Assembly: GCF_000730165.1 (NCBI RefSeq)
Contig: NZ_CP022111.1
Location: forward strand, 930,001-994,000
DNA length: 64,000 nt
Source of the DNA: Nitrospirillum viridazoti CBAmc
Lineage (GTDB): Bacteria > Pseudomonadota > Alphaproteobacteria > Azospirillales > Azospirillaceae
Direction of reading: 5' to 3'
Each line of letters starts with the position of its first letter. Within the stretch, counting starts at the first letter, position 1. Positions 15,143 through 24,789 of this stretch are shown in pieces. A program made the translations under genes and the position numbers. The notes beneath the pieces were generated by a model that made no database searches, was not told where the DNA came from, and saw only the letters and a list, made by a program, of their open reading frames with translations.

Positions 15143-16111
15143 TTATTGTTGCGGCTGCCGTTCCGGGCCGGGGGTGTCCTGATCACTCTCCCCGCCCGGG
15201 TCGATGGGCGGGCCGGAGGGTGGGGCGGGCGCCATGCCCGCCATGCTGCGGGCCAGCGCCAGCCGGGCGCGCACCACCACCCAGCCGCGGGCGAGCGGGC
15301 CCAGGCTGATGCCCTGGGCCAGGGGGTCGCGGCGGCGCAGGCGTCCGGCCATCAGTCGCGCGGCATGCAGCAGAACGGCCGTTTCCATGCGCAGGCCGGG
15401 ATCGCGTAAAGCGCCCGGCAGGGCGCGGGCATGGTCCAGCTGGCGGTCGATGCGGTCCAGCATGCGGTCCAGCACGACGCGCACGGCCGGGGTCGCCCGG
15501 TGCTCCACCAGGTGCTCCGGGCTGGCGCCCACGGCGTCGAACCAATCCAAGGGGAAGTAGCAGCGGCCCAGCCTCACCCAATCGTCCCGGCATTCCTGCA
15601 CAACCCGCAGCAGGCGGATGGCCGTGCACAGCGCGTCCGTGGCGGCCAGCGCGTCGGCGCTTTCGCCGTAGAGCTCCAGGATATGGTGCCCTACCGGGTT
15701 GGCCGCCAGCCGGCAGGCCATCAGCACATCGCCCCAGGTTCGTGCCCGGTACCCCTCCGCATCGCGCCGGAAGGCCTGCAGCAATTGCCGGGCGTGGAGG
15801 GAGGACCCGCCGGTGATGGCCAGGCTGGCCTTCAGTTCCAAGGCGGGGCTGAGCCATGAGGACACGCCGCCGCCGCTGACCAATGCCCGTTCCAGCGCGT
15901 CCAGTTGGGCGACCTTGGCCTCCGGCTCCAGGTTGGCGTCGCCCGTGATGTCGTGCGCCAGCTTCAGGAACGAAGCGAAGGCCGCCGCGTGGCGCCGCAT
16001 GGCCTTGGGCACCCGCCGCAGGGCCGAGGCGTAGCCCCCCTGGACGGGCGGGCGGCGGGGGGCCGCGCGCGTGCGTCCGATATGGGCGGTCTTGATACGG
16101 AAGTCGGCCAT
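15143..16111 (-). CDS. HpnC-like squalene/phytoene synthase family protein
   Basis: A 322-aa protein of the trans-isoprenyl diphosphate head-to-head synthase family, closest to HpnC of hopanoid pathways. It keeps a DxxxD motif as DITGD (residues ~54-58, in KLAHDITGDANLEPEAK). A second acidic motif is in VVQECRDDWVRLGRCYFP (ExxxD), followed by the conserved GRxYxP-type end. So it could be catalytic, unlike the second family member at 23920. However, no hpnD/hpnE or shc gene is next to it. The Pro-rich C-terminal tail (after ~residue 300) is unusual. Product, squalene-pathway intermediate or other, is not established. Confidence 0.7.
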   Translation of the reverse strand: MADFRIKTAHIGRTRAAPRRPPVQGGYASALRRVPKAMRRHAAAFASFLKLAHDITGDANLEPEAKVAQLDALERALVSGGGVSSWLSPALELKASLAITGGSSLHARQLLQAFRRDAEGYRARTWGDVLMACRLAANPVGHHILELYGESADALAATDALCTAIRLLRVVQECRDDWVRLGRCYFPLDWFDAVGASPEHLVEHRATPAVRVVLDRMLDRIDRQLDHARALPGALRDPGLRMETAVLLHAARLMAGRLRRRDPLAQGISLGPLARGWVVVRARLALARSMAGMAPAPPSGPPIDPGGESDQDTPGPERQPQQ

Positions 16112-16270
16112 GGGCGGTCTTCTGTCCGGGCAGCGAAGGACGCGGGATGGAATAGGGACACAGAGTGCCAGAGCTTGGCCGCCGGATGAAGCTTGCGTTT
16201 GGCAGAGGCCGAAGTGGGTGGAAGGGGCAGGGGCACGGGGCCGCCTTGACGGATCCGGTCCGCTTGCCTA

Positions 16271-16305
16271 ATATACGAACATCGAAGATATATTCGATAT
16301 ACGAA
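16271..16305 (+). promoter_or_regulatory. Operator-like element A upstream of the VOC gene (putative IclR site)
   Basis: AT-rich 35-bp element 22 bp before the VOC start. It contains ATACG at 16273-16277, a central GAA...TTC palindrome, and the inverted repeat TTCGATATACGAA at 16293-16305. The two ACG steps are 26 bp apart. The same layout with the same spacing occurs at 19941-19975 and 23740-23774, in promoters around the IclR gene. Confidence 0.65.
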
Positions 16306-16326
16306 AATAAAAGAGGGAGGGTGGGC

Positions 16327-16890
16327 ATGACTGTCCAGGCTGGAACGGCGGGGGCCGGGTTGCCGCTGCGGCTGCACCACAACGCCTATGTCACGGCGGA
16401 TATGGAGGCGACGCGCCGCTTTTATGAGGATCTGGTGGGCATGCCGCTGGTGGCCACATATTGCGAGACCGACCATCTATTCGGCGCCGACCGGGTTTAT
16501 TGCCACTGCTTCTTCGCGCTCAACGATGGCGGAGCCCTGGCCTTCTTCCAGTTCGCCAGCCCCGAGGACCAGGCCCTGTTCGGTCCGGCCATGCCGCCCT
16601 CGCCCTTCCATCACATCGCGCTCAAGGTGGATGCCGCCACGCAAGCCGCCGTCCACGGCCGCTTCCGCGACGCCGGCGTGCCCGAGCCGTCGGACGACTG
16701 CTATTTCCTGGACCATGGATATTGCCAGTCGCTGTACGTGCGCGACCCCAACGGCCTGATCGTGGAGCTGACGGTGGACGCGCCCGGCATCGAGGACACG
16801 GATGAGGAGCGCAAGCGCAACGCGCATGCCGACCTTGCCCGCTGGCTGGGCGGCGACCACCGTTCCAACAACCTTTACCGCCCGCAATAA
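16327..16890 (+). CDS. VOC-family protein (extradiol dioxygenase/glyoxalase type)
   Basis: A 187-aa vicinal-oxygen-chelate protein with two beta-alpha-beta-beta-beta modules. The usual H/H/E metal triad is visible: His18 in RLHHNAYVTADMEATRRFYE, a histidine in PFHHIALKVDAATQ, and Glu in YVRDPNGLIVELTVD. Such proteins are extradiol dioxygenases, lyases or isomerases; the one here cannot be assigned to a substrate. The ATG at 16327 has GGGAGGG 5 nt upstream. First gene of a three-gene run (VOC, citryl-CoA-lyase-like, CoA-transferase) and preceded by operator element A, so it is probably under the nearby IclR regulator. Confidence 0.85.
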   Translation: MTVQAGTAGAGLPLRLHHNAYVTADMEATRRFYEDLVGMPLVATYCETDHLFGADRVYCHCFFALNDGGALAFFQFASPEDQALFGPAMPPSPFHHIALKVDAATQAAVHGRFRDAGVPEPSDDCYFLDHGYCQSLYVRDPNGLIVELTVDAPGIEDTDEERKRNAHADLARWLGGDHRSNNLYRPQ

Positions 16891-16953
16891 CCGGCTTCAC
16901 CCCAGCCGACGCCAGGGGGACGGCCGTCGCCGCCCTTCAAAGGAAAGTCATTG

Positions 16954-17766
16954 ATGAAGATCGGACCTGACACGACGCCGACCACGGCCATTTCCGGCTC
17001 CAACGCCGAGACCATCATCGTCCGGGGCCATGACCTCGTTCAGGATCTGATCGGCACGGTCAGCTTCACGGACCATGTGTGGCTGCTGGTCTGCGGCACG
17101 CTGCCCAGCCCGGAGCAGCGGCGGGTGCTGGACGCCGCCCTGGTCGCCATCGCCGAGCATGGCTTGGTGCCCAGCGTGCAGGCGGCGCGCATGACCCTGG
17201 CGGCCGCGCCGGAGGCCCTGCAAGGCGCCGTCGCTGCCGGCCTGCTGGGCTGCGGCTCCGTTATTCTGGGCAGTGCCGAGGCGGCGGGCCGCTTCCAGAG
17301 CCAGGTGCTGGACGTGGCCAGGGGCAACGACGGTGACCTGGACGCTGCCATCACCGCCACCGTGCGGGCCTATCGCGCGGAGAAGCGGGCCATTCCGGGG
17401 TATGGCCATCCCTTGCACAAGGACGGCGATCCCCGCGCTCTGCGCCTGTTCACCCTGGCGGAGGAGGCGTCGCTGGCGGGCCCGCACATGGAGGTGGCGC
17501 GCCGGGCGGAACACCTGCTGCCCGACCTGGTGGGCAAGCCGCTGAAGATGAACGTGTCGGCCGCCATTCCAGCCGTGCTGCTGGACGCGGGATTCCCGCT
17601 GCTGGCGGTCAAGGGCGTGCCCCTGCTGGCGCGCACCGCCAGCCTGGTGGCCCATTTGCTGGAGGAGCAGCGGCACCCCATCGGCTTCCGCATGTCGCAC
17701 GCGGCCAGCGGCGCCATCCGGTATGACGGGCCGGCGCCGGACGGTTTTGTCGCCGATGAGAATTGA
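16954..17766 (+). CDS. Citrate-synthase-fold citryl-CoA lyase-like protein
   Basis: A 270-aa short member of the citrate synthase superfamily. Kept are EHGLVPSVQAARMTL, the histidine motif GYGHPLHKDGDPRA and the aspartate region AAIPAVLLDAGFPLLAVKG. The first catalytic histidine of citrate synthases (GPLHGGA type) is replaced by GCGSVILGSAEAA, which points to a lyase of an acyl-CoA adduct rather than a synthase. The ATG at 16954 follows AAAGGAAAG. Downstream of the VOC gene (63 bp) and upstream of a CoA-transferase (36 bp), so the pair could activate and cleave a hydroxy-acid CoA ester. The substrate is not known. Confidence 0.78.
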   Translation: MKIGPDTTPTTAISGSNAETIIVRGHDLVQDLIGTVSFTDHVWLLVCGTLPSPEQRRVLDAALVAIAEHGLVPSVQAARMTLAAAPEALQGAVAAGLLGCGSVILGSAEAAGRFQSQVLDVARGNDGDLDAAITATVRAYRAEKRAIPGYGHPLHKDGDPRALRLFTLAEEASLAGPHMEVARRAEHLLPDLVGKPLKMNVSAAIPAVLLDAGFPLLAVKGVPLLARTASLVAHLLEEQRHPIGFRMSHAASGAIRYDGPAPDGFVADEN

Positions 17767-17802
17767 GTGGATGAGAACGGATAGTCGAAAGGTTGCAGGC
17801 TG

Positions 17803-18957
17803 ATGGTTGAGGTGCTGAAAGGCATACGGGTGGTGGAGCAGGGGACGTTCATCACGGGTCCCTGTGCCGCCATGCTGCTGGCGGACCTGGGGGCGGACGT
17901 CATCAAGATCGAATCGCCCGAGGGCGGCGACCCCTACCGCACCTTCAAGGACGGGCACTACAGTGCCCACTTTCAGGCCTACAACCATGCCAAGCGCAGC
18001 CTGTGCCTGGATCTGAAGAAGGCGGAGGACCGCACGCTGTTCCACGGGCTGGTCAGCAGCGCCGACGTCTATATCCAGAACTTCCGCCCCGGCGTCGCCG
18101 GCCGCATCGGTGCCGGCTGGGACGACTTGTCGGCGGTGAATCCCAAGCTGGTCTATTGCTCCATCAGTGGCTTCGGCCCGGACGGGCCCTACAGCCGCCG
18201 GCCCAGCTATGACAGCGTGACCCAGGCACTGAGCGGCTTCCTCAGTGTCGCCATCGACCCCGCCAACCCGCGCCTGCTGGGCCCCGCCCTGGCCGACGCC
18301 ATCACCGGCCTATATGCCGCCCTGGGCATCCTGGGCGCGCTGGTGGAACGGGGACGGACGGGCGTGGGCCGCCTGCTGGAAATCTCCATGCTGGAGGCGA
18401 TGATGCACTTCGCCATCGAGCCGTTCGCCGGGTATTTCGCCCTGGGCGAGGTGCCGACGGGCATGGATCGGCCCCGCCTGGCCCAGGCCATGATCCTGAC
18501 CTGTGGCGACGGCAAGCACGTAGCCGTGCATATGTCGTCGCTGGAGAAGTTCTGGGACGCGCTGGTGGCCGGCATCGGCGGGCAGGCCCTGACCCAAGAT
18601 CCGCGCTTCGCCACCCGCCTAGCCCGCATCGACCATTATCCACAGTTGGTGGCGGCGTTGAACGCCATCTTCGCGACCCGGCCGCGGGCGGAGTGGGTGG
18701 CGCTGCTGAGCGATACGGACCTGCCCTTTGCCCCGGTGAATTCCATCGCCGACACCGCCGCGGATCCACAGGTGGAGCACCTGAAGATGCTGGTGCCCGT
18801 GGCCAAGCGGATCGAGGGGGCAAGCCGCCTGGTACGCTCGCCCTTCGCCTATGGTGGCGCCCGCGACGATGCGGTGGTGGCGGCCCCGCTGTTGGGCCAG
18901 CACAGCGCCGGCATCCGCGCAGCCCTGGTCGAGAACCCCGGCACCTGGCCCGGGTGA
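17803..18957 (+). CDS. Class III (CaiB/BaiF) CoA-transferase
   Basis: A 384-aa family III CoA-transferase, moving CoA between an acyl-CoA and a free acid in the cytoplasm. Signatures are IRVVEQGTFITGPCAAMLLADLGADVIKIE at the N-terminus (split here: IRVVEQGTFITGP then CAAMLLADLGADVIK), NFRPGVAGRIGAGWDDLSAV, SGFGPDGPYSRRPSYD, and the catalytic aspartate at residue 165 (ALADAITGLYAALG). Last gene of the VOC/citryl-CoA-lyase-like run; its stop lies 20 bp from the convergent iclR stop. Likely activates the acid substrate of the locus. No clear ribosome binding site, but the start fits the family. Confidence 0.9.
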   Translation: MVEVLKGIRVVEQGTFITGPCAAMLLADLGADVIKIESPEGGDPYRTFKDGHYSAHFQAYNHAKRSLCLDLKKAEDRTLFHGLVSSADVYIQNFRPGVAGRIGAGWDDLSAVNPKLVYCSISGFGPDGPYSRRPSYDSVTQALSGFLSVAIDPANPRLLGPALADAITGLYAALGILGALVERGRTGVGRLLEISMLEAMMHFAIEPFAGYFALGEVPTGMDRPRLAQAMILTCGDGKHVAVHMSSLEKFWDALVAGIGGQALTQDPRFATRLARIDHYPQLVAALNAIFATRPRAEWVALLSDTDLPFAPVNSIADTAADPQVEHLKMLVPVAKRIEGASRLVRSPFAYGGARDDAVVAAPLLGQHSAGIRAALVENPGTWPG

Positions 18958-18977
18958 TCAGCGCCGACGCATCAGCG

Positions 18978-19817
18978 TCAGCGGCCCAGGGCCACCGTGT
19001 CGGCCACGGGCAGCAGCCCGTTACCCGAGGGCAGGCGGCGCAGTTCGCGGGAAATCTGGTCGGCCACACCGCGCAGATGGTCCAGGCGCTCGGCCACCAG
19101 CTGGTCCTTGGCATAGCGCTTGGAATGGCTGGCGGAATTCAGGGTGGCGATGGTGCGCCCACCCTGGTCTTTCAGCGGCACGGCCAGGGAGACGACGCCG
19201 TAGGCCAGTTCATCCTCAACCGCGCAGTAGCCGTCCTTGCGCACCTGGGTGATCAGGTCGAACAGTTGGTCCCGGTCCACCACGGTTTTCTCGGTGATGG
19301 GCGCGATGGCCGCCTTGTCCAGGAAGGCGCGCAGCATGGGGTCGGGCAGGGCCGCCAGCAGTACGCGGCCCATCGCCGTGGCGAATGCGGGGAAGCGGCT
19401 GCCGACATGCGCCTCCAGCCGCACCAGGGTACGGACGGAGGCGCGGGCGACATAGATGATGTCCTCCCCGTCCAGCACGCTGATGGACGCGCTGTCCGAC
19501 GTGGCGTTGGCCAGTTCCGTCAGCGGCACGGACGCCAGGCGCTCTATATCCAGGGCCTCTAGATAGGCGGCCCCCAGGTCCAGCACCTTGGGCCGCAGGA
19601 AGAAGCGGCGCTTGACCGAGCCGACATAGCCCAGGGATTGCAGGGTCAGAAGGCAGCGGCGCGCGGTTGCCGGCGCCAGGCCGGTGATGGTGGCGATCTC
19701 GCTGAGCGACAGGCTGGGATGGTCGTGGTTGAAGGCCAGCAGCACGCTGAGGCCTTTGGCCAGCCCGGCCATCTCTTCGCGGCGGCCTTCGCCCTCCGTG
19801 CCCGCGTCCTCATCCAT
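18978..19817 (-). CDS. IclR-family transcriptional regulator (PcaR/PobR-like)
   Basis: A 279-aa regulator. The N-terminal winged helix-turn-helix is at residues ~18-75 (LSLSEIATITGLAPATARRC), and the rest is the IclR effector domain (LVRLEAHVGSRFPAFATAMGRVLLA, DDELAYG-like VEDELAYGVVSLAVPL). It is most like the PcaR/PcaU/PobR group that controls aromatic-acid catabolism. The ATG at 19817 is preferred because GAAGGA lies 8 nt upstream; TTG at 19841 and ATG at 19826 are weaker. Divergent from the hydrolase gene, with operator element B in the shared 185 bp. Proposed regulator of the three promoters with the shared element and of itself. Confidence 0.88.
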   Translation of the reverse strand: MDEDAGTEGEGRREEMAGLAKGLSVLLAFNHDHPSLSLSEIATITGLAPATARRCLLTLQSLGYVGSVKRRFFLRPKVLDLGAAYLEALDIERLASVPLTELANATSDSASISVLDGEDIIYVARASVRTLVRLEAHVGSRFPAFATAMGRVLLAALPDPMLRAFLDKAAIAPITEKTVVDRDQLFDLITQVRKDGYCAVEDELAYGVVSLAVPLKDQGGRTIATLNSASHSKRYAKDQLVAERLDHLRGVADQISRELRRLPSGNGLLPVADTVALGR

Positions 19818-19940
19818 GCCGCGCATCCTTCGCTGCTTCAAATCATGCCAACCAGGCGGCGGGAGGGTCGGCTTGGCCGCTTGTCCTTGTCAAGCGACGG
19901 CAAGGGCCGCGGCAATTGCGCCGCCGGATGGGTGCTGCTA

Positions 19941-19975
19941 CCATACGATATTAGAAAAAGAATTCGATAAACGAA
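19941..19975 (+). promoter_or_regulatory. Operator-like element B between iclR and hydrolase genes
   Basis: Contains ATACG at 19943-19947 and TTCGATAAACGAA at 19963-19975, with 26 bp between the ACG steps, as in elements A and C. Located 27 bp upstream of the hydrolase start and 123 bp upstream of the iclR start. It could control both divergent genes. Confidence 0.65.
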
Positions 19976-20002
19976 TTTTAGGTCGCAGGGAGAGCGATAT
20001 CC

Positions 20003-20731
20003 ATGGCATCCGATCCTGTCCCCCAGCCTACCCTGGTCCTGCTGCCCGGTTTGCTGTGCGACCGCACCGTCTGGGAACCGCAGATTGCGGCCCTATCTTC
20101 CCGCCGGATGATCCAGGTGGCGGACTTCTGGGGCCAGGACAGCTTCGACGCCATGGCCGACGGGGTGTTGGCCCACGCCCCGCCCCGGTTCGCGCTGGCC
20201 GGTCATTCCATGGGCGGCCGGGTGGCGCTGGAGATCATGCGCAAGGCGCCGGAACGGGTCGAGCGGTTGGCCCTGCTGAGCACGGGCGTACATCCCGTGC
20301 TGCCCAATGAGGCGGCGCAGCGGGAGGAACTGATCCGCTTCGCCTGGGAACAGGGCATGACAGCGCTGGCCCGCCGCTGGCTGCCGCCGGTGCTGCATCC
20401 CGATCGCCGCGGCAATGCGGAGCTGGTGGGGCGGTTGGCGGCGATGTGGTGCCGGGCCACCCCCGCCATCCATGAGGGGCAGATCCGGGCGGCGCTGAAT
20501 CGCCGGGACGCACGTGATGTGCTTCCCACATTGACGTGTCCCCCCTTGGCCTGTCCCACCCTGGTCTTGGGTGGGGAGGATGACCCGTGGAGCCCGCCCG
20601 CGCAGCAGGCCGCCGTCGCCGAGGCCATTCCCGAGGGCCGCTTGGCCATCATCCCCCGCTGCGGCCATATGGTGACGCTGGAGACGCCCGAGGCCACCAC
20701 CACCCTATTGGTGGATTGGCTGTCGCGCTGA
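20003..20731 (+). CDS. Alpha/beta-fold hydrolase
   Basis: A 242-aa alpha/beta hydrolase. The oxyanion region is [16 protein letters not shown], the nucleophile elbow is [11 protein letters not shown] (serine near residue 73), the acid is likely the aspartate in [13 protein letters not shown], and the catalytic histidine is in [14 protein letters not shown]. Together these are a complete Ser-Asp-His triad. GGGAG precedes the ATG. First of two genes with wrbA (46 bp apart), transcribed away from iclR and downstream of operator element B. Probably hydrolyses an ester or lactone intermediate or an imported ester of the locus; the substrate is unknown. Confidence 0.88.
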
Positions 20732-20777
20732 CCGACCCAGCCTTGATCCCATCCTCAACACCATGGAGAACACCGCC

Positions 20778-21383
20778 ATGACCAAGGTCCTGGTCCTCTA
20801 TTACAGCACCTACGGCCATGTGGAGACGCTGGCCTATGCCATCGCCGACGGGGCCCGCGATGTCGCCGGCACCGAGGTCACGGTCAAGCGCGTGCCGGAG
20901 CTGATGCCGCCGGACGTGGCGGCCAAGGCGCATGCCAAGCTGGACCAGAAGGCCCCCCTGGCCGATCCGGCGGAACTGGGGCACTACGACGCCGTGATCA
21001 TCGGTGCGCCCACCCGCTTCGGCAACATGGCAGCACAGATGCGCAATTTTCTGGATCAGACGGGGCCGCTGTGGGCCCAGGGGGCGCTGGTCGGCAAGGT
21101 GGGCGCCGCCTTCACCTCCACCGCCAGCCAGCATGGCGGCCAGGAAACCACCCTGACCTCCATCCACACCACGTTGCTGCATCACGGCATGGTGATCTGT
21201 GGCGTACCCTATTCCGAGCCGGGCCTGACGGTGATGGATGAGGTCACGGGCGGCACACCCTATGGCGCCAGCACCATCGCCGGCCCCAAGGGCGAGCGCC
21301 AGCCCAGCGCCAACGAACTGACTATCGCCCGCGCCCAGGGCCGTTTCGTGGCTGGCGTGGCCGCCAAGCAGGCCGCGCAATAA
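20778..21383 (+). CDS. wrbA: NAD(P)H:quinone oxidoreductase, type IV
   Basis: A 201-aa flavodoxin-like FMN protein reducing quinones by two electrons in the cytoplasm. Signatures are the FMN loop [47 protein letters not shown] and the C-terminal [18 protein letters not shown]. The ATG at 20778 ([10 protein letters not shown]) has GGAGAA upstream; an ATG at 20763 gives five extra residues. Follows the hydrolase gene and is probably in its operon. In a catabolic locus it could detoxify quinones formed from catechol- or hydroquinone-type intermediates. Confidence 0.93.
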
Positions 21384-21423
21384 AAAGCGGCCGCCTCGGA
21401 GGTCGATCCGGGACGGCCCCAAT

Positions 21424-21453
21424 ATCCCGGCCGGCGGTGGCGACGGCCGGGAT
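21424..21453. terminator. Hairpin between convergent wrbA and TonB-receptor genes
   Basis: Perfect 10-bp inverted repeat, ATCCCGGCCG (21424-21433) with CGGCCGGGAT (21444-21453), in the 81-bp convergent gap. No T run, so an atypical terminator. Confidence 0.5.
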
Positions 21454-21464
21454 GGAGGTGGGGT

Positions 21465-23720
21465 TTAAAACCAGAAGGTCGCCTCCGCCCCGAAGCGGCG
21501 GGGCAGGGCCTTGAAGACGAAGCCGCCGGGCGAATATTCGGCGTTGTAGCGCTTGTCGAAGACGTTCTTTGCCCACAGGGCCACGGACCAGTCATCACGG
21601 GTGTAGGTGGTGCGCACGTCCACCAAATCCACCGGGTCGCGCACGGTGGAGTTCTGCGGATCCCAATAGGTATCGCCGATGCGCTGGTATTCCAGGCGGG
21701 AGACCAGGGATGAACTTTTGCCGAAGTCCCAGGTGTGCTGGAGGGCGGCGTTGATGGTGTACTTGGAAACGCCGGGCGCCTGGTTGCCGATGACCGTGCG
21801 ATCGGTGGCTTCCGTGATGTTGCTGTCGGTGTAGCCCGCCCCGATGCTGGCCTGCAGGCTGTCCGTCAGGTGGGCGGTCAGGCCGGCGTCGGCGCCCTTG
21901 TATTCCACCAGGCCGAGGTTGCCCAGGTTCTGGGTGGAGTTGGCGGCCAGGAAGACAAAGAAATAGGGATTGTGGGAACGGGTGTAGAAGCCGGCGCCCT
22001 CCACCTCCAGCCGGTGGTCGAACAGGGTCTTCTTGAAGCCCAGTTCGTAGGTGTCCGCCCATTCCGCCTGGAACAGGTCGGATACGCCCAGGATGCCGTT
22101 GGCCGCGGCCACGGCGCCCACGCCCGTCTGGTTGAAGCCGCCGCTGCGGAAGCCGCGCCCCCAGTCGGCATATAGGATGGTGGTCGTGTCCGGCTTGTAG
22201 CGCAGCACGATCTTGGGCTGGGCCCGGTCGAAGGTGCGCTCACGCACCTCGCCGCTGACCCCCTGGGGGAAGCCCGGGATGTTGGGCAGGAAGGCGGTGG
22301 GGGTCAGGGTGGTGTTGCGCCGGTTGTCGCTGTCGTAGCGCAGCGACAGCGCCAGCTCCAGCTGGTCGGTCAGTTCCGCCGTCAGGTCGCCGTACAGCGC
22401 CCAGGCCATGTTGTCCTGGCTGTCGGCCAGGAAGGTGGCCTGCGGGTTCAGCGGGTTGGTACTGGGGCTGCGGTAGACGGGGAAGACGCCGTTGCCGGTG
22501 TCCACCATGTTGCCGGTGGAGATGTAGCGGTCGGTATGGATGAGATAGCCGCCAACGATCCAGCGCAGGAAGCCCTCGTTGGGCGAGGTCAGGCGGAAGT
22601 CCTCGCTGACCGCCTTCACGTCCAGGAACTGGCTCTGGTTCATGTCGAAGCCCAGCAGCCCCTTGAAGAAGGATTCGTTGATGGGCAGGAAGTCGAAGGC
22701 GTCGCCGGTGACGATCTCGCGCACCACGTCATAGGCCGTGACCGAGGTGGCGGTGGCGAAGCCCAGGTTCCAGTCGACCTTGACCGAAGCGTCCAGCAGA
22801 CGGCGGTTGTCGATGCCGGCGTTGTTGACCCGCACCGGCAGGCTGGTGTCGTTCACGTCGCTGACGATGTTGTAGTAGAAGCCGCGCGTATCCAGTTCCG
22901 ACATGGAAAAGCGCGTGTCCACGGTCAGATCCTCGGTGGGCGTGAACAGCAGCTTCAGCCGGCCTGAGGTCTGCTTGACCGGGTTGGCCTCGGTATCCAG
23001 GTAGGTGTTCTTGATGGTGCCGTCGTTGCTGGTGTGGCTGATGGAACCGATGAACTTCAGCTTGCCAGGGACGATGGCGCCGCTGGCCGTGGCCTGCTCG
23101 GTATAGCCGGGGCCGTTCTCCACCCCCGCCTTGACCTTGAACTCATAGGTGTCGGTGGGTTCCTTGGTGGTGATCAGGATGGCGCCGCCGATGGCGTTGC
23201 GGCCGTAAAGGCCGCCCTGCGGACCCTTCAGCACTTCGATCCCCGAAATGTCGAACAGGTCCTGGTTGAACTGGGACGGGTTCACCTGCTGCACCCCGTC
23301 CACCACCACGGCGGTCGACGGCTCGCTGTTGCGCGCCTGGCCGATGCCGCGCACGACGACGAAGGCCGTGCCCACGTTCTGGGTTTCCACCAGCGTGACG
23401 TTGGGCGTCATGGCGATGAAGTCGCGGGGCGCGGTGATGCCCGCCGCCTCGATCTGCGCCTCGGTGAAGGCCGTCACCGCCGCCGGCACGTCCGTCAGCT
23501 TTTCCGCGCGCTTGCGGGCGATGACCAGGATGTCCTCCAACTGGCCAACGGCGCTGTTGTCGCTCGCGGCGTTGGTCTGGCCTAGGGCGCTGCCGCCGGA
23601 AAGCAGAGCGGCCGTCAGTGCCAGCCGCGAGGTCGTCCGGGTGAAGGCGGAGCGCGCCTTGCGGCGGCGCAGGTGGTGGTCAGGTGTCAGGCGATCCCCG
23701 TGCACGGCCGCTGGCGGCAT
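21465..23720 (-). CDS. TonB-dependent outer-membrane receptor
   Basis: A 751-aa outer-membrane receptor importing a ligand with energy from TonB. After a long leader (signal core LALTAALLSGGSALGQ) come a TonB-box-like EDILVIARKR, the plug domain (LTDVPAAVTAFTEAQIEAAG, IEVLKGPQGGLYGRNAIGGA) and the barrel, ending in the aromatic residues ATFWF. It resembles the large group of receptors from sphingomonads and Rhodospirillales that import plant compounds or aromatics rather than siderophore receptors. The ATG at 23720 has GGGGAGG 6 nt upstream. Operator element C lies 20 bp upstream, tying it to the IclR locus. The ligand is unknown. Confidence 0.92.
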   Translation of the reverse strand: MPPAAVHGDRLTPDHHLRRRKARSAFTRTTSRLALTAALLSGGSALGQTNAASDNSAVGQLEDILVIARKRAEKLTDVPAAVTAFTEAQIEAAGITAPRDFIAMTPNVTLVETQNVGTAFVVVRGIGQARNSEPSTAVVVDGVQQVNPSQFNQDLFDISGIEVLKGPQGGLYGRNAIGGAILITTKEPTDTYEFKVKAGVENGPGYTEQATASGAIVPGKLKFIGSISHTSNDGTIKNTYLDTEANPVKQTSGRLKLLFTPTEDLTVDTRFSMSELDTRGFYYNIVSDVNDTSLPVRVNNAGIDNRRLLDASVKVDWNLGFATATSVTAYDVVREIVTGDAFDFLPINESFFKGLLGFDMNQSQFLDVKAVSEDFRLTSPNEGFLRWIVGGYLIHTDRYISTGNMVDTGNGVFPVYRSPSTNPLNPQATFLADSQDNMAWALYGDLTAELTDQLELALSLRYDSDNRRNTTLTPTAFLPNIPGFPQGVSGEVRERTFDRAQPKIVLRYKPDTTTILYADWGRGFRSGGFNQTGVGAVAAANGILGVSDLFQAEWADTYELGFKKTLFDHRLEVEGAGFYTRSHNPYFFVFLAANSTQNLGNLGLVEYKGADAGLTAHLTDSLQASIGAGYTDSNITEATDRTVIGNQAPGVSKYTINAALQHTWDFGKSSSLVSRLEYQRIGDTYWDPQNSTVRDPVDLVDVRTTYTRDDWSVALWAKNVFDKRYNAEYSPGGFVFKALPRRFGAEATFWF

Positions 23721-23739
23721 CGTTGTCCTCCCCGTTTTT

Positions 23740-23774
23740 TTCGTATAACGAAAATATTTTCTATAAACGTATCT
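23740..23774 (-). promoter_or_regulatory. Operator-like element C upstream of the TonB receptor gene
   Basis: On the minus strand: ATACG (23772-23768), then the inverted repeat TTCGTTATACGAA, which reads TTCGTATAACGAA on the plus strand at 23740-23752. The ACG steps are again 26 bp apart, as in elements A and B. It lies directly before the ribosome binding site of the receptor gene, where bound protein would block transcription. Confidence 0.65.
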
Positions 23775-23919
23775 TAGCATTCTGGCGAAGATCGTCAAGA
23801 CGCCGGCCCCGGCACGACGCCGGCCGGTTATCGTCCTTTGGGAGGGAGGCGGGGTGGTGAAGGTGGCGCTGGTCAGGGGCGGGGCGGGCGGTTCATAAAG
23901 GCGGCCTCTTTCCCGCCGG

Positions 23920-24789
23920 ATGCGCAGCGCCATGGCCCCCTCAGCCCAGCCCACCCTGTCCTATTGCCTGGACACCGTCCGCCGTCAGGATCCGGACCGC
24001 TTCCTGACCCTGCTGTTCGCCCCGGCGGACAGGCGGGAAGATTTGGCCGCGCTGTACGCCTTCAACCACGAGGTGGCGAAGACGCGGGAGGTGGTGACCG
24101 AGCCCATGTTGGGCCAGATCCGCCTGCAATGGTGGCGCGACAGCATCGCCGGCATCTATGAGGGCGAGCCCCGCCGGCACGAGGTGGTGCAGCCCCTGGC
24201 CCAGGCGGCGCAGCGCCACGGCCTGGATCGCGCGCAGTTGGAATTGCTGGTGGACGCGCGCGAGGCCGACATGGACGACGCGGCGCCAGCGGATCTCGCC
24301 TGCCTGGTGAGCTATGCCGAGGTGACGTCCGCTCCGCTGGTGCGCCTGGCGTTGCAGATCCTCGGCGTCGCGCCGGAGGGGGCTGCCGCGACGGTGGCGG
24401 CCCATGTCGGTCGGGGCTGGGCCCTGGCTGGTATCCTGCGCGCCGTGCCTTTCCTGGCCCGCGCCCATCGCTCGCGCATGCCGGCCGATCTCATGCTGAA
24501 GCATGGCGCGGATGAGGCCGCTCTGTTCGAGCTGAAGCCCCAGCCCGGCCTGGCCGTCGTGGCCGAGGAGATCGCGGATGCGGCACAGGCCGAGCTGACA
24601 GCCGCCCGGCGCCTGCGCGGTCAGCTTCCGCGCGCCGCCGTACCCGCCCTGCTACCGGCCCGCCTGGCCAGCCTGTCGCTGGCCCGCCTGGCCAAGGCCA
24701 GCCACGATCCGTTGGCCCCGGAGCTGCTGCGCCCCGATGGCCTACGGGCCGCTCGGCTGGCCTGGGCGGCATTTAGCGGCAGGTGGTGA
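23920..24789 (+). CDS. Squalene/phytoene synthase-like protein, NDUFAF6 type
   Basis: A 289-aa protein with the isoprenoid-synthase fold. The first Asp-rich motif of real synthases is replaced by LYAFNHEVAKTREVVTEP, the pattern of the NDUFAF6 group, whose mitochondrial members act in complex I assembly and are thought not to be catalytic. Other matches are GQIRLQWWRDSIAGIYEG and GWALAGILRAVPFLA. An ATG at 23932 is a possible alternative start. It ends 18 bp from the convergent trmFO stop. In related genomes it follows the Mth938 gene; here the two are separated by sodB, the HpnC-like gene and the IclR locus. Confidence 0.8.
   Translation: MRSAMAPSAQPTLSYCLDTVRRQDPDRFLTLLFAPADRREDLAALYAFNHEVAKTREVVTEPMLGQIRLQWWRDSIAGIYEGEPRRHEVVQPLAQAAQRHGLDRAQLELLVDAREADMDDAAPADLACLVSYAEVTSAPLVRLALQILGVAPEGAAATVAAHVGRGWALAGILRAVPFLARAHRSRMPADLMLKHGADEAALFELKPQPGLAVVAEEIADAAQAELTAARRLRGQLPRAAVPALLPARLASLSLARLAKASHDPLAPELLRPDGLRAARLAWAAFSGRW

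Follow-up and report, generated by a model that had tools for sequence, protein, structure and literature searches.

A 64,000-nucleotide stretch of the Nitrospirillum viridazoti CBAmc genome (contig NZ_CP022111.1, positions 930,001 to 994,000), hereafter the window, contains a cluster of genes for a VOC-fold protein, a citryl-coenzyme A (CoA)-lyase-like protein, a CoA-transferase, an IclR-family regulator, an alpha/beta hydrolase, a WrbA-type oxidoreductase and a TonB-dependent receptor, together with three copies of a 35-bp element (Table 1). Judged by their spacing the genes would form three transcription units, VOC-lyase-CoA-transferase, hydrolase-WrbA and the TonB receptor, and the elements precede the VOC gene, the hydrolase gene, which is divergent from iclR, and the TonB receptor gene. 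These gene identities agree with an initial annotation of the sequence, which placed about seven genes under the control of the IclR protein, a count that is correct when iclR itself is included.

The regulator belongs to the IclR family, with matches to PF09339 (52.7 bits, cut-off 22) and PF01614 (132.8 bits, cut-off 24) that exceed the Pfam gathering scores, and its closest named relatives are those of N. amazonense BR 11880 (100% identical) and BR 12005 (99%). Its match to TIGR02431, the NCBIfam model of the PcaR/PcaU/PobR subfamily, is near full-length and scores 270.8 bits against a cut-off of 284.75; by this profile the protein is PcaR/PcaU/PobR-like, outside the filed membership of TIGR02431. 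The lyase-like gene product is predicted to be a citryl-CoA-lyase-like enzyme (citryl-CoA lyase, PRK06224.1-5), its score lying above the NF004868 cut-off.

Table 1. Genes, operators and promoter-like sites of the cluster, with positions counted from the first nucleotide of the window.
Feature	Position	Strand	Remarks
Gain/loss module (regulator, operators, genes)	approx. 16192-23865		Absent between flanking squalene/phytoene-synthase genes in 3/7 genomes; edges uncertain by tens of bases
Promoter-like TTGACG-17-TAATAT, VOC operon	16246-16274	+	Sigma-70-type scan; -10 overlaps element 1
Element 1, tandem operator	16271-16305	+	Palindromes 16274-16286 and 16293-16305; ends 21 bp before VOC ATG
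VOC/glyoxalase-fold metalloprotein, candidate ring-cleaving dioxygenase	16327-16890	+	H18, H96, E147 invariant in 22 aligned sequences
Citryl-CoA-lyase-like protein	16954-17766	+	NF004868, 314.5 bits, cut-off 193
Family III (CaiB-type) CoA-transferase	17803-18957	+	Profile match
IclR-family regulator, nearest PcaR/PcaU/PobR subfamily (below its cut-off)	18978-19817	-	Profile match
Element 2, tandem operator	19941-19975	+	Palindromes 19944-19956 and 19963-19975; between hydrolase operon and divergent iclR; ends 27 bp before start codon
Promoter-like TGGATA-17-TAAAAT, iclR direction	19975-20003	-	Consensus match only; -10 abuts element 2
Alpha/beta hydrolase, PcaD-like but far below PcaD cut-off	20003-20731	+	Profile match
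WrbA-type NAD(P)H:quinone oxidoreductase	20763-21383	+	330.6 bits, cut-off 141
TonB-dependent outer-membrane receptor	21465-23720	-	Profile match
Element 3, tandem operator	23740-23774	-	32-mer core 23771-23740; ends 19 bp before TonB-receptor ATG
Promoter-like TTGACG-16-TAAGAT, TonB receptor gene	23771-23798	-	Sigma-70-type scan; -10 overlaps element 3

All three elements lie where the initial annotation had put them and align without gaps, elements 1 and 3 being identical at 27/35 positions and element 2 matching element 1 and element 3 at 24/35 each. On both strands of the window the best match of each element is another of the elements, and nothing elsewhere exceeds 20/35, barring shifted reverse complements of the elements. 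Each consists of two 13-bp palindromes, TWCG-N5-MGAA-N6-TTCG-N5-CGAA, with centres 19 bp apart in all three. It had been proposed that each element holds an ATACG half-site, a GAA...TTC core and a TTCG-N5-CGAA palindrome; the last of these, on the right, stands, but what was taken for a half-site is a degenerate arm, the left one of a first palindrome, and the core is made up of the two inner arms. The half-site-plus-core anatomy was dropped in favour of two tandem palindromes because relatives keep both palindromes intact and a pitch test, given below, singles out 19 bp, and the 26-bp spacing of the ACG steps that had been pointed out is accounted for by this layout.

Compared with WTTYCRYW3RYGRAAW, the IclR consensus in the literature, the right palindromes of elements 1 to 3 agree at 15, 14 and 17 of 17 positions, and the left palindromes, which are degenerate in this genus, agree less well, at 11, 11 and 12 of 17. 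Palindromic boxes of this type are the group 1 motifs of Suvorova and Gelfand 2021 (PMC8222616), the accessible part of which also describes tandem sites with 18-22 nt between centres in 94 orthologous groups, and in the terms of that part the layout of the elements is the "group 1, tandem" operator grammar. At L055:11518-11568, and also at L056 and L058, three successive palindromes with a 19-bp pitch are found before a TonB receptor gene, which suggests room for a third dimer.

A 20-position consensus of the elements, with up to three mismatches, has three matches in the 7.38-Mb genome, which are the three elements, and its reversed pattern has none; the whole-genome scan proposed with the initial annotation thus finds no scatter of matches, and in other genomes too nearly all sites lie at such a locus. 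Within the window the tandem-palindrome pattern with up to three mismatches has four matches against 0.13 expected, the fourth of which overlaps element 2. A looser scan of the genome with 16 fixed positions gives four places at up to two mismatches, three of them the elements, and at up to three mismatches 13 places against 15 for the control, which is no better than the control. The nearest IclR paralogue in the same genome (G000:C3:1477934-1478797, locus L065; 43% identical) has a related but distinct double box upstream (13/16), possibly its own operator.

Related loci were fetched by alignment of ten IclR sequences, that of the window included, without reference to the motif, and of 303 relatives the best 80 were retained. 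The citryl-CoA-lyase-like gene is found in 74 of the 80, CaiB in 69, TonB in 52, VOC in 51 and WrbA in 40, and the element is present at 14/16 or better in 77, so that the expectation of the same element upstream of orthologous loci is borne out. Palindrome pairs scoring at least 15/16 number 101 at the 19-bp pitch, spread over 65 loci, compared with 0-3 for every alternative pitch between 11 and 40, and no such pair appeared when the 80 loci were Markov-resampled five times (400 copies). There are 260 perfect TTCG-N-CGAA palindromes when the spacer is N5, and 15-85 for each of the other spacer lengths between 0 and 15; both the palindromes and the pitch persist among loci whose IclR proteins are as little as about 41% identical. 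Within the same taxonomic family, the score stays at 10-12/16 in 16 out of 16 IclR-paralogue loci that lack any further cluster gene within 1.5 kb, whereas it is 13-16/16 in all 14 loci of equal size that bear the cluster. A family-wide search of 82 genomes with a 33-bp pattern (up to three mismatches) returned single three-mismatch matches in G027, G032, G064 and G065, which are at the control level (6) and were not counted.

The converse comparison starts from the motif alone and covers 249 genomes of one sphingomonad family (that of Sphingomonas flavalba, L113, presumably the Sphingomonadaceae), sampled from a larger group. The exact motif is present in 20 of these and the reversed pattern in none; at 19 of the 20 loci there are cluster IclR, lyase, CaiB, TonB or VOC genes, and the remaining locus (L166, in G223) holds none. 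The lyase gene (E <= 1e-30) is found in 37 genomes, 19 with the exact operator and 18 without, and the IclR profile (E <= 1e-40) is matched in 19/19 operator genomes, 0/18 lyase-only genomes and 0/1 chance-match genome (Fisher p 1.1e-9 for co-occurrence of operator and IclR, phylogeny ignored). In the 850-900 bases upstream of the lyase gene of the 18 lyase-only genomes the best score is 8-11/16. As far as sequence comparison goes the operator follows the regulator, not the enzymes, and the original proposal that the IclR protein governs the genes behind the elements is supported both by the genome scan and by operator and regulator being present together in 19 genomes and absent together in 18.

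The lyase-only genomes themselves (G106, G112, G164 and 15 more; L171-L188) have a CaiB gene beside the lyase in 15/18 cases, with neither IclR gene nor operator. A further 20 cluster genomes contain 38 sites at up to one mismatch, against two for the reversed pattern; 36 of the 38 fall inside a fetched IclR/lyase/CaiB cluster locus, one being an additional copy that the L121 genome carries, and the two outside comprise one just upstream of a MetE-like gene (L167) and one that is unexplained. Operator-like sites (14-16/16) before MetE-like (Meth_synt_2) genes were seen at L113:4012, L115:4061 and L167:8757, in one case some 34 kb away from the cluster; the product would be a cobalamin-independent methionine-synthase-like protein.

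The cluster is flanked by two divergent squalene/phytoene-synthase genes, which are 7.8 kb apart in the window and 183-243 bp apart in G060, G062 and G064. It is present in four of seven genomes of the genus and missing from this site in these three, the other genes not having been searched for elsewhere in them. Similarity to the empty-site genomes is lost near 16191-16202 and picks up again somewhere from 23840 to 23929. The empty sites (L189, L190, L191) contain no tandem element and no single TTCG-N5-CGAA palindrome. Nor is there a close IclR orthologue in the three genomes, where the best match is at E 4e-48 (paralogue level) or there is none at 1e-40. By this comparison operators and genes are one module, gained or lost together; its G+C content of 0.669 does not differ from that of the window (0.670).

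The position of the elements relative to promoters suggests the sign of control. A scan of 15900-24200 for sigma-70-type promoters found three promoter-like sites, every one touching an element. In orthologous loci (L067-L069, which are too close to the window, and L167 being omitted from the counts) TTGAC occurs 22-36 bp upstream of the element at 44/72 lyase-gene operators, compared with 0-3/72 in six control windows, and at exactly +14, inside the spacer, at 23/30 TonB-receptor operators. The pattern TTGnn-16/18-TAnnnT starts at +14 in nine CaiB operators and at +24 in 11 intradiol operators. Because the elements overlap core promoters, the IclR protein is predicted to be a repressor, of its own gene as well.

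It is very probable, in our judgement, that the IclR protein binds the elements and represses the three units and its own gene until a pathway compound releases it. Two dimers of the protein would occupy each element, on tandem palindromes whose centres lie about two helical turns apart, and would thereby cover the core promoters of the VOC-lyase-CoA-transferase, hydrolase-WrbA and TonB receptor units, with element 2 extending this control to iclR. Release would be brought about by a substrate or intermediate of the pathway, probably an aromatic one.

A number of observations weigh against this reading. The promoters are consensus matches, and three found against 1.0 (standard deviation 1.2) expected is not significant by number alone; that in the direction of the hydrolase at element 2 is weak (TTGCGC/TACCAT, picked out by eye) and was missed by the scan. 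The upstream TTGAC is mostly missing at CaiB (0/24), intradiol (1/12) and VOC (2/7) operators. An IclR homologue occurs with no element at L083 and L096 (best 12/16) and L129 reaches 13, five cluster-bearing loci of the family (L059-L063) have a weaker element of 13-14/16, and three of the 20 further cluster genomes lack any site at up to one mismatch. The genomes compared are moreover related, so the counts are not independent. Finally, PcaU, PobR and PcaR are activators, and the IclR protein might likewise be an activator bound close to the promoter.

This last point leads to the most serious rival, in which the same regulator and operators serve ligand-dependent activation, as with PcaU, PobR and P. 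putida PcaR, which are activators, or a dual role. In its favour, the PcaR/PcaU/PobR model is the one nearest to the protein, and the imperfect promoter hexamers (9/12) would suit an activated promoter; however, the elements coincide in part with the -10 or -35 region instead of lying upstream, and the promoter-like site for divergent iclR directly adjoins element 2. We regard this explanation as unlikely. It would seem very improbable that a different regulator binds the elements and that the IclR gene merely adjoins them. The link to the IclR protein is drawn from sequence, and this genome encodes six more matches to it (E <= 0.001); against this, the operator and this IclR clade occur together in 19/19 genomes and in 0/18, sixteen paralogue loci are without the element, regulator and operators are gained or lost jointly, as a module, and the operator grammar is that of IclR proteins in the accessible part of PMC8222616. 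It is scarcely conceivable that the elements have no regulatory meaning and represent a repeat copied in recent times or promoter DNA rich in AT, for whilst they are AT-rich in a window of 67% G+C, as promoters often are, plain AT-rich or copied DNA would not keep two 13-bp palindromes at a 19-bp pitch, and the pitch and co-occurrence tests already contradict it.

The proposed repression through tandem palindromes by the IclR protein can be set beside known systems. The initial annotation had compared the elements to the sites of PcaU and PobR, and this holds for the grammar of the DNA but not for membership of the protein, which remains below the TIGR02431 cut-off. Shared features are palindromic boxes of TTCG...CGAA type (GTNCG-N5-6-CGNAC group 1 motifs for PcaR, PcaU and PobR) and, for PcaU and PobR, a box beyond one palindrome, both according to the accessible part of PMC8222616, as well as the nearest protein model and a catabolic setting, here with a PcaD-like hydrolase. 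The differences are that four boxes form two tandem palindromes here, as opposed to a palindrome plus one direct-repeat box, and that this regulon lacks any recognised pca gene and encodes a citryl-CoA-lyase-like enzyme alongside a CoA-transferase. The likeness to the tandem-site IclR regulators of the same study, again in its accessible part, extends to two palindromes at 19 nt centre to centre and to the fit of the right palindromes to the WTT-11-AAW consensus. PheR of Sphingobium SHPJ-2 (PMC13273656) is likewise an IclR-type regulator of aromatic catabolism; in the available text it is a repressor whose deletion raises TonB-receptor genes and whose footprint covers the transcription start. 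It differs in its core motif, GCAACG, and in its phenanthrene pathway, and that text contains no tandem TTCG-N5-CGAA pair.

One indication of the nature of the pathway comes from the VOC protein. Residues H18, H96 and E147, which we take to be a 2-His-1-carboxylate metal triad such as that of extradiol/VOC ring-cleaving dioxygenases, are kept in 22/22 aligned sequences (that of the window and 21 chosen from 44). The structure that its model (mean predicted local distance difference test score, pLDDT, 88) resembles most is 9u42, an Acinetobacter entry titled homogentisate 1,2-dioxygenase (E 4.4e-12, TM 0.68/0.75), and a profile search points the same way (4.3e-24); lower-ranking matches are to glyoxalases and fosfomycin enzymes. 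The VOC protein therefore probably cleaves an aromatic ring. Gallate, methoxyhydroquinones and homogentisate were considered as substrates and none was supported beyond the VOC structure match.

Among 81 loci (L067-L146, L168) VOC is the only ring-cleavage gene in 45, an intradiol gene in 12 and LigB in six; three have VOC with another type and 15 have none, three of which have VOC by separate search. The gene assignment missed VOC in L072, L073 and L088, and several loci without VOC, intradiol or LigB are short contigs. The survey's figure of 120/126 is partly circular, as the family names came from clustering the same loci; for the lyase, TonB, VOC, CaiB and IclR the counts were made with the proteins of the window itself. 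Uptake genes in 75 lyase-bearing loci are TonB in 50, TRAP in 16, both in none and neither in nine, so that TonB receptor and TRAP transporter likewise stand in for one another. This distribution of VOC, intradiol and LigB suggests non-orthologous replacement of the ring-cleavage step, their exclusivity being partly confounded with lineage and uptake type.

The predicted order of the pathway is aromatic ring cleavage, CoA-transferase and then lyase. It is tentatively proposed, with somewhat less than even confidence, that this is an undescribed and widespread aromatic route in which VOC, intradiol and LigB dioxygenases, whose three folds are unrelated, interchange under one conserved IclR tandem operator, the product being CoA-activated (CaiB-type) and then split by a citrate-synthase-fold lyase (citryl-CoA-type retro-Claisen) in place of the beta-ketoadipate thiolase. 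Literature searches aimed at the cluster, pathway or operator found no description of the cluster or pathway in the titles and abstracts among the matches listed. The operator grammar is already known from the accessible part of PMC8222616, and this cluster would be a new instance of it.

Searching for the operator can locate the cluster with no recourse to protein homology, as it did in 19 of the 20 matched genomes among the 249 of the sphingomonad family, and the match of operator and regulator among lyase-bearing genomes amounts to a clean natural experiment on IclR specificity. Furthermore, the seemingly interchangeable ring-cleavage enzymes make the question of the substrate directly testable. 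Going by record titles, sphingomonads, Steroidobacteraceae, rhodobacters, rhizobia and Azospirillaceae share the regulon that the operator defines and with it, probably, a catabolic pathway.

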